Made by a program: the position numbers and the translations under genes
Origin: Kitasatospora sp. NBC_01266
GTDB taxonomy: Bacteria; Actinomycetota; Actinomycetes; Streptomycetales; Streptomycetaceae
Assembly (NCBI RefSeq): GCF_036242395.1
Contig: NZ_CP108458.1
Location: 4,340,001 to 4,404,000 of the forward strand
DNA: 64,000 bases
Direction: 5' to 3'
Shown: positions 1,560 to 49,977 of the stretch, in pieces
Layout: each line of letters starts with the position of its first letter
Numbering within the stretch: the stretch's first letter is position 1
Notes under the pieces: generated by a model
Databases searched by the model: none
What the model was told of the DNA's origin: nothing
What the model saw: only the letters and a program-made list of their open reading frames with translations

Positions 1560-1963
1560 CCCGCCCGAGCGCTCCTCTCGACCTCGCGACCATTCATGGA
1601 TCTGACTTCTGACGCGCTTTTCTCGCCGATAGCCAGGGCTCGGACGCGATTTTTCTTGACCCTGAACTGCCGCTGTTTCCAAGTGACTTGACTGCTCCAC
1701 AGGGGAAAATCAGCGAGCACATCACCCGTTTGGATTTTTAACGGACCATCAGACCTAAAAGGCCCTTAGTGTGCATACGAGTGAGTAATGGTGCGTCACT
1801 GCCGCGGCGGGTAGCAGTTCGGTGACCTCCCATCCGGTCAGGTCCGCGAACAGGCTCGACACGCCGACCGGAATCCTGCGGCTCGACCAGAACTCACCAC
1901 GTCAGCTCGGAGCCTCCGCAACGGGGAGTTCGAGTTCAACGGCGGCAAGAAAGGTCTTGTCCT
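1560..1963 (+). other. Intergenic stretch before collagen-like gene
   Basis: No gene is supported here. The part from about 1610 to 1790 is clearly less GC-rich than its surroundings and holds several T and A runs and TTGAC-like hexamers (around 1655 and 1687), so it probably carries the promoter of the downstream surface-protein gene. I cannot pair a convincing -35 and -10. No strong hairpin was seen. Confidence 0.5.
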
Positions 1964-4078
1964 ATGGCAGTGGATGTCATCGTGTCCGCTTCCCCCGGCC
2001 GACGGCGCAGACGCACTCGGATCAGGGAAGCCCTCGTGTTGGTCCCCGGATTGGCGTTGCTGGCAACGGGAGTTCTGCATCCCAGCCTCGCGCACGCCGC
2101 AGATGCACCCGTGATGCTGGGGACCGACACCACTTACGCGGTTCTGGGCGGTTCAACGGTCACCAACACGGGGCCCAGTGTGATCAACGGCGACTTGGGG
2201 CTCAGCCCGGGTTCCTCAGTGACGGGCTTTCCACCGGGCATTATCAACGGCGCGCTGCACGTCGCTGACGCGCCCGCCCTGCAAGCACAGTCGGACCTGG
2301 TCATCGCGTACAACGATGCGGCCGGCCGAGCACCCACGGCCAGCGTCGCGGGCGACCTGGTCGGGCTGACACTGACATCCGGCGTCTACAACTCCACTGG
2401 GCCACTGGGACTGACCGGGACCGTGACGCTCGACGCCCAGGGTGATCCCAGCGCGGTCTTCATCTTCCAGATCGCCTCGACCCTGATCACCGGCTCGGCG
2501 AGCAACGTGAGTCTCGTCAACGGGGCACAGGCCTGCAACGTGTTCTGGCAGGTGGGGAGTTCCGCCACCATCGGGACCAACTCCTTCTTCAAGGGCAACA
2601 TCCTGGCCCTGACCTCCATCGCGGCACAGACCGGCACCGTGATCGAAGGCCGGGCCCTGGCGCGCAATGGCGCGGTCACACTGGACACCAACACCATTAC
2701 GAGAGCGGCCTGCACTGTCGGCCCGCCCGGACCGCCCGGACCGAGCGGCCCGGCCGGACCCAGCGGACCCGCCGGCCCGACCGGCTCGCCCGGACCTACG
2801 GGCGCGCCTGGTGCTCCCGGCGCCAACGGTTCTCCTGGTGCCCCAGGTGCTCCCGGTCCCAACGGTGCGCCTGGCGTTGCCGGCTCACCCGGGGCTCCTG
2901 GTGCGCCCGGCCCGAACGGCGCACCCGGCGCGCCCGGCTCCCCTGGCCCCAACGGTGCTCCCGGTGCCAACGGTGCGCCTGGGGCTAACGGTGCGCCTGG
3001 GGCCAACGGCTCTCCCGGCGCACCCGGTCCCAACGGAGCGCCCGGCGCCAGCGGTGCTCCCGGCGCACCTGGCCCCAACGGTGCTCCCGGCGCCAACGGC
3101 TCTCCCGGCGCACCCGGCCCCAACGGAGCGCCCGGTCCCAACGGCTCTCCCGGCGCACCCGGCCCCAACGGAGCGCCCGGTCCCAACGGCTCCCCCGGCG
3201 CCAACGGTGCTCCCGGCGCAAACGGCTCCCCCGGCGCTCCCGGTCCCAACGGAGCTCCCGGCGCAAGCGGTGCTCCCGGCCCCAACGGCTCGCCCGGTGC
3301 ACCTGGACCCAACGGATCCCCCGGAGCCAACGGTGCTCCCGGCCCCAACGGCTCCCCCGGCCCCAACGGCCTGCCTGGCGCCAACGGCTCCCCTGGAGCT
3401 AACGGCTCGCCCGGTGCACCTGGTCCCAACGGCTCGCCCGGAGCCAACGGTGCTCCCGGCCCCAACGGCTCCCCCGGCGCCAACGGCTCGCCTGGTCCCA
3501 ACGGCTCCCCCGGAGCCAACGGTGCTCCCGGCCCCAACGGCTCCCCCGGCGCTAACGGCTCGCCCGGCGCTAACGGCTCGCCCGGAGCCAACGGTGCTCC
3601 CGGCCCCAACGGTTCCCCGGGTGCCAACGGTGCTCCCGGTGCCCCCGGTGCTCCCGGCCCCAACGGCCTGCCTGGCGCCAACGGCGCTCCCGGGGCCAGC
3701 GGTGCTCCCGGTGCTCCCGGTGCCCCCGGTGCTCCGGGCCCTGCCGGACCGGCTGGCCCCGCTGGACCTCCCGGACCCGCCGGCCCTCCCGAGTCTCCGG
3801 GGGAGCACGGCGGTCATGGCCAAGGAGGCCCTGGACAGGGTGATCACGGGAAGGGCGAGGGTGATCACGGCCAGAGTGAGCATGGGAAGGGCGAGGTTGG
3901 TCACGACCAGGGTGACCATGGGCAGCATCCGAGCAAGTCGAAGCAAGAACTCGCTGCGACCGGCACAGATGAGTCGATCGGCCTTGTGGTCGGCTCGCTG
4001 GTCCTGCTTGCGCTCGGAGGCTTGGCCATCCTCCTCATGAGGAGGAGCCGAGGAGGCGCAGCCGGTCGACGGCACTAG
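1964..4078 (+). CDS. Sortase-anchored ice-binding-like/collagen-like surface protein
   Basis: A 704-residue secreted wall protein. Residues 1-46 form a signal peptide (RRRRR, hydrophobic core, AHA-A cleavage). Residues about 50-250 match the DUF3494 ice-binding-like beta-solenoid domain ([42 protein letters not shown]). Residues 253-609 are 119 uninterrupted G-X-Y collagen triplets dominated by GAPG, GPNG, GANG and GSPG. A His/Gly/Asp/Lys-rich spacer follows, then LAATG at 663-667, a membrane helix and RRSRGG: a class E sortase signal. AAAGG lies about 9 bases before the ATG. Two class E sortases are encoded at 48-50 kb. The DUF3494 fold is also found in adhesins, so adhesion or matrix formation is as likely as ice binding. 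Architecture is seen; function is inferred. Confidence 0.92.
2720..3790 (+). repeat. Collagen-coding repeat tract
   Basis: 1071 bases encoding 119 consecutive Gly-X-Y triplets. The DNA consists of degenerate 9- and 18-base units built on GGN-CCN/GCN-AAC/CCN codons, with many near-identical copies. Because Gly, Pro, Ala and Asn codons here rarely create stops, several other frames stay open on both strands. Such tracts tend to vary in length by slippage or recombination. Confidence 0.95.
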
Positions 4079-48065: not shown

Positions 48066-48806
48066 TCAGCCCCGCAGTTCCGCCGGCGGCGTCCGCTGCG
48101 CGTCCATCGGGTCCACCCGGACCAGGCTCCCCCACACCGCCATCCGGTACCGGGAGGTGTACACCGGCGTGCAGGTGGTCAGCGTGATGTACCGCCCGGG
48201 CTCCCGGTAGCCCGACTCCTGCGGCACCGGAGCGGTGATCCCCGTGTCGTACTTGCTGGTCTGCTCCAGGGTGGCGTCCACCCGGTAGACGTACCAGTGG
48301 TCCCGCGTCTCGACCACGATCGGGTCGCCCTTGCCCACCGCGTCGAGGTCGTGGAACTTGGCGCCGTGGCCGTCCCGGTGCGCGGCGAGCGCGAAGTTGC
48401 CGCTGGCGTCCCAGGGCATGGCCGCCTGGTAGGGCTCCTGGTAGGCGCCCGCCACACCCTGGTTGAGCACCTCGGGAGTGGTGCCCGGCTTGATCAGCAC
48501 CTGGTAGTCCTTGCCCATCGCGGGCACGTGCAGGAACCCGATGCCCTCGCTCGCCAGGTACGGCACGGCGGGGGCCGCCGGGGCGGTCCAGGTCTGCCTG
48601 AGCCGGTCACCCGCCCGGTCCGACTGACGGTCCGCCAGCAGGTCGGTCCACCAGAGCGAGTAGCCGACGAAGAGCGCGAGCACCAGGCCGGCCGTGATCA
48701 GCACCTCACCCAGCACCCCGAGCGCCAGCGCGCCGCGGGAGCGGCGGCGGCCCGGGGCGCCGCCGCCCGCAGGGCTCACGGTCAACTGCTGCCACTGGTC
48801 CGTCAC
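48066..48806 (-). CDS. srtE: Class E sortase
   Basis: A 246-residue membrane transpeptidase. One membrane helix (residues about 28-50) is followed by the sortase barrel with His in ALAAHRDGHG, Cys212 in TLTTCTP and the catalytic Arg in YTSRYR. Class E sortases attach LAXTG proteins, in streptomycetes the long chaplins, to peptidoglycan. The GTG at 48806 starts the protein. It follows the second sortase gene on the same strand by 40 bases, so they probably share a transcript. Confidence 0.95.
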   Translation of the reverse strand: MTDQWQQLTVSPAGGGAPGRRRSRGALALGVLGEVLITAGLVLALFVGYSLWWTDLLADRQSDRAGDRLRQTWTAPAAPAVPYLASEGIGFLHVPAMGKDYQVLIKPGTTPEVLNQGVAGAYQEPYQAAMPWDASGNFALAAHRDGHGAKFHDLDAVGKGDPIVVETRDHWYVYRVDATLEQTSKYDTGITAPVPQESGYREPGRYITLTTCTPVYTSRYRMAVWGSLVRVDPMDAQRTPPAELRG

Positions 48807-48846: not shown

Positions 48847-49977
48847 CTAACCGTTCGTCAGCGCCGGGGGCAGCCCCTGGCTGCGCGGCCGATCGTCCAC
48901 CATCTTGCCGAAGACGATGAGCCTTCCCACGGCACTGTACTCGGGGGTGCAGGTGGTCATCGTGATGTAGCGGCCCGCCTGGGTGAACGGGGAGCCGTTG
49001 GGGATCGGGTTGAGCACCGCGACGTTGTGCGGCGAGGTCTGCGGGATGCCGCCTTCCACCTGGTAGGTGTAGTAGTCGGTCTGGGTCTCGACCACGATCA
49101 TGTCGCCGGGGTGGAGTTCGGCGAGCCGGTTGAACGGCTGGCCGTGCGTGGTGCGGTGGCCGGCGACGGCGAAGTTGCCGCTCGCGTCGGAGGGCATCGC
49201 GGTCCCGGTGTAGTGGCCGACCAGGCCGTGGTCGAGCACCGTGGTGGTGTCGGTGCCCTCGGCGATCGGGTCGGTGAGGCCGATCTTGGGGATGTGGATG
49301 ATCGCGAAGCCCTTGCCGGGGGCGAAGGTCGGCGCGGGTGCGGCGGACTGGCCGGCGGCGGGGGTCGTCGGGGTGACGGTGGGGTTGTTCCACTGCTGCT
49401 CGAGCTGGTTGCGGGTGCTGTTCGCGGAAGCGTCCGCCTGCACGTTGGTCCACCACAGCTGGTAGGCCACGAAGAGCAGCATCACCAGGCCGAAGGTGAT
49501 GCACAGCTCGCCGACCGCGCGGGCGGCGAGCACCCGCTTGCGCTCCTTGGGACGCACCACGGGGCCGCGCCGACCGGTCGCCCGGCGCCGCCCGGTGCCG
49601 GAGCGCACCGAGACCTTGCCCTGCGCGCGGCGCGCGGCGGGCACCGGCACAGCGCCCGCGGCGCCGTCCGGGCTGACGGATATCGTGCGCAGCTGCAGCG
49701 TCTGGTCGGCCAGCCACGGGTAGGCGGGCTGCTCGTCCGGCTGCGCGGGGTCGTAGACGCCCCAGCCGTCCGGCTCCGCCGTGCCGGGGTGGCGGTCGCC
49801 GGCCGGCTCGCCGGGCCCGTTCGCGGCCGTCCGGTACCCGTCCGTGCCGTATCCGGCCGCGTCGTACTGCGGCGTCCCGTACCCGGGCGCCCCCTGCGCG
49901 GGCGGCCGGTATCCGCCCGGCTGCTGCCCGTAGCCCGGGTATGCCTGCTGGCGCCCCTCCGGACGCACCGCGGTCAC
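48847..49977 (-). CDS. srtE: Class E sortase with long cytoplasmic N-terminus
   Basis: A 376-residue sortase. Residues 1-150 are a disordered cytoplasmic region rich in Gly, Tyr, Pro and Gln (GYGQQPGGYRPP), then a basic stretch and a membrane helix (ELCITFGLVMLLFVAYQLWW). The barrel carries His in AVAGHRTTHG, Cys343 in TMTTCTP and a nearby Arg (VGRLI). Streptomycetes use two class E sortases with overlapping roles; the pair here fits. The GTG at 49977 is 4 bases after the pabA/trpG stop, so translation is nearly coupled to it. Confidence 0.95.
   Translation of the reverse strand: MTAVRPEGRQQAYPGYGQQPGGYRPPAQGAPGYGTPQYDAAGYGTDGYRTAANGPGEPAGDRHPGTAEPDGWGVYDPAQPDEQPAYPWLADQTLQLRTISVSPDGAAGAVPVPAARRAQGKVSVRSGTGRRRATGRRGPVVRPKERKRVLAARAVGELCITFGLVMLLFVAYQLWWTNVQADASANSTRNQLEQQWNNPTVTPTTPAAGQSAAPAPTFAPGKGFAIIHIPKIGLTDPIAEGTDTTTVLDHGLVGHYTGTAMPSDASGNFAVAGHRTTHGQPFNRLAELHPGDMIVVETQTDYYTYQVEGGIPQTSPHNVAVLNPIPNGSPFTQAGRYITMTTCTPEYSAVGRLIVFGKMVDDRPRSQGLPPALTNG

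Follow-up and report, generated by a model that had tools for sequence, protein, structure and literature searches.

A collagen-stalked protein with an ice-binding-like head and a class E sortase signal in Kitasatospora sp. NBC_01266

Among described systems, the streptococcal proteins Scl1 and Scl2 follow the plan of the protein reported here, with an N-terminal head, a Gly-X-Y rod and a sortase signal; their head, however, is unrelated to ours, their signal is an LPxTG motif for class A sortase, and their stalk is charged. The exosporium filaments formed by BclA in Bacillus likewise hold heads on the surface with a charge-poor collagen rod of variable length, but the head is again unrelated, the anchoring is different, and the rod is Thr-rich and glycosylated. 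The long chaplins ChpA-C of Streptomyces end in an LAxTG signal for SrtE1 and SrtE2, as here, but are built from chaplin domains and contain neither collagen nor DUF3494; ChpA-C are said to be the only functionally characterised sortase-dependent surface proteins of Streptomyces (PMC13293333), in agreement with an earlier sequence-only reading of this DNA, which had named chaplins as the main known substrates.

Ice-binding-type domains on an extender also occur in SfIBP_1 of Shewanella frigidimarina (6BG8) and other Ig-tethered ice adhesins, which differ in their Gram-negative hosts, their Ala-rich face, and a tether made of beta-sandwiches rather than collagen. EfcIBP (6EIO), a type 1 ice-binding protein, shares a capless fold and a Thr/Ser face with the head studied here, but its solved structure has no collagen stalk, and its ice activity has been measured whereas that of our head is putative. 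BA_0871 of Bacillus anthracis is structurally ice-binding-like and is a collagen-binding adhesin (PMC9210967). The pair of domains, in identical order (pfam11999_pfam01391), has been tabulated from Arctic Ocean metagenomes of polar sea water and ice (PMC9957290); the tabulated part of that source gives no sortase signal, and its cell-adhesion label comes from domain content alone.

We analysed a 64,000-nucleotide stretch of the Kitasatospora sp. NBC_01266 genome (contig NZ_CP108458.1, positions 4,340,001 to 4,404,000; hereafter the window), which encodes a protein that is probably a class E sortase-anchored, collagen-stalked fibrillar surface adhesin of this filamentous soil actinomycete (Table 1). 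The open reading frame (1964-4078) and the count of 119 uninterrupted triplets given by the sequence-only reading both proved exact; its "His/Asp-rich" spacer is indeed rich in these two residues, but also in Gly, Glu and Lys. The signal peptide cleavage site, near AHA|AD, was placed by eye. The thiC neighbourhood of the gene is common to two of the compared loci (L031 and L037) and is rearranged in another (L038).

Table 1 Features of the stalked-protein gene and of the sortase genes (window coordinates).
Feature	Position	Strand	Basis
Conserved palindromic element GTAATGGTGCGTCACT, BldD-box-like	1782..1797	+	Alignment; clade consensus GTGACGGTNCRTCACC
Ribosome-binding site AGAAAGG	1948..1954	+	Conserved alongside start codon in relatives' alignment
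Whole gene, 704 aa	1964..4078	+	Open reading frame: ATG 1964, stop 4078
Signal peptide: Arg-rich n-region, hydrophobic core, AHA|AD	1964..2098	+	Sequence
DUF3494 / Ice_binding beta-solenoid head, conserved Cys191 and Cys250	2099..2713	+	Profile, model, alignment
Collagen-like stalk, 119 Gly-X-Y triplets, aa 253-609	2720..3790	+	Triplet count, Pfam
Stalk N-terminal cap: Pro-rich, without Asn	2720..2818	+	Sequence
Stalk middle, Asn-patterned: 38 Asn	2819..3682	+	Sequence
Stalk C-terminal cap: Pro-rich, without Asn	3683..3790	+	Sequence
His/Gly/Asp/Glu/Lys-rich spacer, aa 610-662, presumed wall-spanning	3791..3949	+	Sequence
LAATG sorting motif, aa 663	3950..3964	+	Kept as LAxTG in relatives
Hydrophobic segment, then basic (RR) tail	3965..4075	+	Sequence
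Class E sortase, SrtE2-like, likely anchoring enzyme	48066..48806	-	NF033747, residue alignment
Class E sortase, SrtE1-like, likely anchoring enzyme	48847..49977	-	NF033747, residue alignment

Profile comparison bore out the DUF3494 head proposed earlier: residues 60-246 match the full length of PF11999 (Ice_binding; profile positions 1-208 of 208) with an E value of 1.6e-67 and 227.6 bits (gathering score 28.7). An AlphaFold2 model, built from the window sequence and 77 relatives, yielded a triangular beta-solenoid with a long alpha helix (mean pLDDT 97.4), and the best matches in a structure search were DUF3494 ice-binding proteins, including EfcIBP (TM 0.97, 54% identity). Two ascomycete proteins (7BWX and 7BWY) were also among the nearest solved structures (Z 36.9-37.4, with 6EIO at Z 36.9). 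Cys191 and Cys250 are kept in more than 90% of relatives, are the sole cysteines in most, and probably form a disulfide. The head is under purifying selection, with dN/dS values of 0.07-0.25 against ten relatives; this and the unbroken Gly of the stalk place the observation well outside what chance would produce.

We then considered the putative B face, assigning its positions by the order of the strands and the alignment to EfcIBP rather than by coordinates. On this face, 13 of 14 outward positions are Thr, Ser or Ala, as compared with 35% across the whole head; most agree with EfcIBP, and two Thr/Ser rows are kept. Judged by the alignment, the face that binds ice in other proteins is intact in this head, and ice may be its natural ligand. 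The protein could be pictured, by analogy with the ice-tethering bacterial proteins, as a true ice adhesin or ice-recrystallisation inhibitor whose heads would attach to ice and shield hyphae or spores when soil freezes, as suggested by the capless fold, the retained Thr/Ser rows and the likeness to EfcIBP, whose thermal hysteresis has been measured (PMC10992025). We regard this as rather unlikely. The Thr/Ser/Ala pattern is equally seen in the relatives and across actinobacteria generally, where it may reflect the fold or another ligand, and since it is conserved in presumed mesophiles an intact face is no proof of ice as the ligand; in addition, a survey found Ser/Thr in this ice-binding-face column to be associated with rock and sediment, not with ice habitats (PMC12337378), and the names of the relatives show no sign of a cold habitat.

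The stalk matches PF01391 (Collagen) with an E value of 1.1e-53 and 179 bits (threshold 27.2), and its triplets, led by GAP (39), GSP (22), GPN (20) and GAN (18), contain no or almost no charged residues. Against the NCBIfam models for Scl1 and Scl2, the collagen part scored 117 bits (cut-off 325) and 97 bits (cut-off 400), below both; the protein appears to work like an Scl, but is not an Scl by these cut-offs. Every Asn of the window stalk occupies the Y position, none lies in adjacent triplets (0 observed versus 14.7 expected from permutations of the middle part, with 0 of 20,000 as low), and each Asn triplet is followed by one with Pro at Y. In twelve related Asn-rich stalks (16 to 32 Asn each) Asn is likewise confined to Y, two consecutive triplets never both contain it, and the following Y is Pro apart from few exceptions; because these stalks are related to each other, the shared rule is not independent evidence. 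Duplication of a six-residue unit contributes to the pattern. Ser at X stands directly after Asn in 19 of 22 cases; we considered Asn-Gly-Ser as N-glycosylation sequons and dropped this, as descent of the repeat unit explains the pattern equally well. In the 14 LAxTG stalks checked, both ends lack Asn and are Pro-rich (mean Pro fraction 0.64 and 0.57, versus 0.39 in the middle), and such caps would suit helix ends. No description of the Asn-position rule was found in the open-access literature.

At the DNA level the stalk shows repeats with periods of 18, 45 and 117 bp, which, together with the variable stalk length, would be expected if the Gly-X-Y segment were a slippage-driven GC-rich repeat without collagen structure. 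This is very improbable, considering that Gly is unbroken over 119 triplets despite codons that use all four third bases (GGC 60, GGT 36, GGA 19, GGG 4), and that the Asn rule and the caps are fixed in 13-14 stalks. A collagen stalk of this kind may trimerise into a triple helix, for which we predict a rod of about 102 nm as an upper limit (357 residues × 0.286 nm). Among the points against our preferred reading of a collagen-stalked adhesin, we identified no trimerisation domain in the 704-residue protein, and a collagen helix lacking hydroxyproline should be made less stable by Asn at Y combined with the absence of charge pairs.

LAATG, found as predicted at residue 663 (nt 3950), lies 42 residues from the C-terminus and is followed by a hydrophobic segment and a basic tail, making a complete sorting signal. 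The two class E sortases reported earlier at 48-50 kb were confirmed with NF033747 (232 bits for 48066-48806 and 252 bits for 48847-49977); they are the only full class E sortases of the genome, and are adjoined by a pabA-like gene and a serine/threonine-kinase-like gene. Alignment to S. coelicolor SrtE1 (5CUW) revealed that both keep the equivalents of His251, Cys320, Arg329 and Tyr229, the last of which is thought to favour alanine at P3. With these catalytic residues intact and LAxTG kept in 17 collagen-clade heads of our tree, the earlier view that this is a surface protein with a stalk and a class E sorting signal held up, and the protein would be linked to the wall by these enzymes. A long chaplin elsewhere in the same genome ends in LAFTG, so the class E pathway has another plausible client. 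The window also contains a short chaplin gene (81 aa, PF03777; 32133-32378, + strand). Separately, 75 of 94 Streptomycetaceae DUF3494 proteins, whatever their stalk type, carry at least 4 His within 40 residues after the stalk, a His-rich stretch that perhaps binds metal or the wall.

A further point against that reading is that anchoring is not universal among the relatives, as several collagen-clade Streptomyces proteins lack LAxTG. The motif is clearly missing in 11 of the 29 collagen-type DUF3494 proteins of the family sample (2 more run off the contig), and two Streptomyces proteins (L060 and L089) retain the hydrophobic segment with its basic tail but have a decayed motif (ALASDH and GLASPG, respectively), which suggests a loss of sortase anchoring. 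Such cases raise the alternative that the protein, perhaps here too, acts after release as a soluble collagen-like component of a biofilm matrix; given that the sorting signal of the window protein is complete and that the genome encodes matching sortases, we consider this quite improbable here.

We investigated how widely these features are distributed. We detected PF11999 in 29 of the 70 genus genomes and in 98 of the 298 family genomes; its absence from the other 200, about two thirds, indicates that the function is dispensable and likewise counts against the adhesin reading. A scan of named genomes placed the closest relatives, whose heads are 95% identical, within Kitasatospora. The tree groups 31 Streptomycetaceae heads into a single clade (SH-aLRT 99) whose members, with few exceptions, have collagen stalks, and in which the LAxTG bearers make up two groups; in its other Streptomyces members the motif appears to have been lost or never present. 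A family sample of 106 DUF3494 proteins comprised 63 with Thr-Gly repeats and 29 with collagen, 16 of the latter with LAxTG; the window protein is thus not unique. Its stalk is the longest observed, LAxTG members spanning 37 to 119 triplets. Since most family members have a Thr-Gly stalk instead of collagen, the stalk is interchangeable, as expected if it is only an extender of the head.

Several further C-terminal arrangements were observed in these proteins. The 63 Thr-Gly stalks (TTTG, GGTT; L002-L011 and L111-L186), possibly O-glycosylated rods, lack LAxTG and are often followed by a His/Asp/Lys/Gly-rich tail. Eight proteins without LAxTG (L005, L007, L009, L010, L011, L020, L021 and L026) have a GGVGTGVGG-like end, a transmembrane segment and RRR, a possible signal for another sortase class. 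Seven DUF3494 proteins (L050, L055, L057, L062, L064, L075 and L088), which belong to Thermoleophilia-type actinobacteria or, in the case of L062, to an unplaced actinobacterial MAG, have varied preceding domains and (G)FTG as their very last residues, with no transmembrane segment after it; of the 3,530 ORFs in the other loci, only that of L062 ends in this way, and the motif may be an undescribed C-terminal sorting or processing tag.

A conserved palindrome, its consensus GTGACGGTNCRTCACC drawn from part of the collagen clade, sits some 165 bases upstream of the ATG. At least 12 of 16 positions match this consensus in 24 of 31 collagen-clade upstream regions, versus 2 of 139 other DUF3494 upstream regions. 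Compared with the published BldD box, TNAC(N)5GTNA (PMC4151990), the element is exact in some relatives and has one mismatch among the six fixed bases in the window copy. The palindrome hints at developmental control; given the partial-clade consensus and the possibility of other GTNAC-binding regulators, BldD control is a lead only. A strict AGTGA-N11-TCAC reading of the box was dropped in favour of the published consensus. A genome-wide scan for the palindrome returned nine one-mismatch matches, mostly in coding DNA, and no usable regulon, and a scan for sigma-70 promoters and terminators gave nothing beyond chance level.

These observations bear on whether the protein might be a structural part of the coat on aerial hyphae or spores, scheduled by BldD and anchored like the long chaplins, with length and surface chemistry mattering more than a specific ligand. 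The conserved palindrome, the variable stalk length and the anchoring of developmental coat proteins by class E sortases in Streptomyces and Actinoplanes (PMC5148588, PMC13251363) make this a real possibility, though we lean against it: the window palindrome departs from the short BldD consensus, its genome-wide matches fall largely within genes, and the high conservation of the head suggests a ligand.

In our preferred reading, that of an anchored adhesin, the protein would be exported by Sec, three chains would zip into a collagen triple helix between the Pro-rich caps, and SrtE1/SrtE2 would cut the Thr-Gly bond of LAATG and attach the chain to peptidoglycan. The resulting rod, up to about 100 nm, would carry the DUF3494 heads out past the wall; there, their flat Thr/Ser face may stick to ice or, more generally, to minerals, polymers or neighbouring hyphae, and the conserved upstream operator may confine production to a particular developmental stage. 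A more specific version, with BldD-timed, wall-linked collagen hairs of ~100 nm on aerial hyphae or spores, each bearing three ice- or hydrate-matching heads and following an undescribed Asn rule (Asn only at Y, nearly always a Pro-at-Y triplet next, almost no ion pairs, Pro-rich caps), we consider unlikely.

The sequence-only reading took the architecture to be apparently new, or at least seldom described. As a domain pair it is not, being found across Streptomycetaceae and, according to the tabulated part of PMC9957290, in Arctic metagenomes; the LAxTG-anchored form, by contrast, looks undescribed, and we found neither a description of it nor any paper on Kitasatospora collagen-like proteins in the open-access literature. 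The parts are known, and their putatively wall-linked combination and the Asn-patterned collagen hardly described.

The protein would give SrtE1/SrtE2 a second, quite different and testable type of substrate beside ChpA-C. Its ice-binding-type head occurs in soil actinomycetes that are not known to favour the cold, which raises the question of what DUF3494 binds where there is no ice. Finally, a natural long collagen that is almost uncharged, presumably lacks hydroxyproline and obeys an Asn-position rule is relevant to collagen stability and biomaterials.
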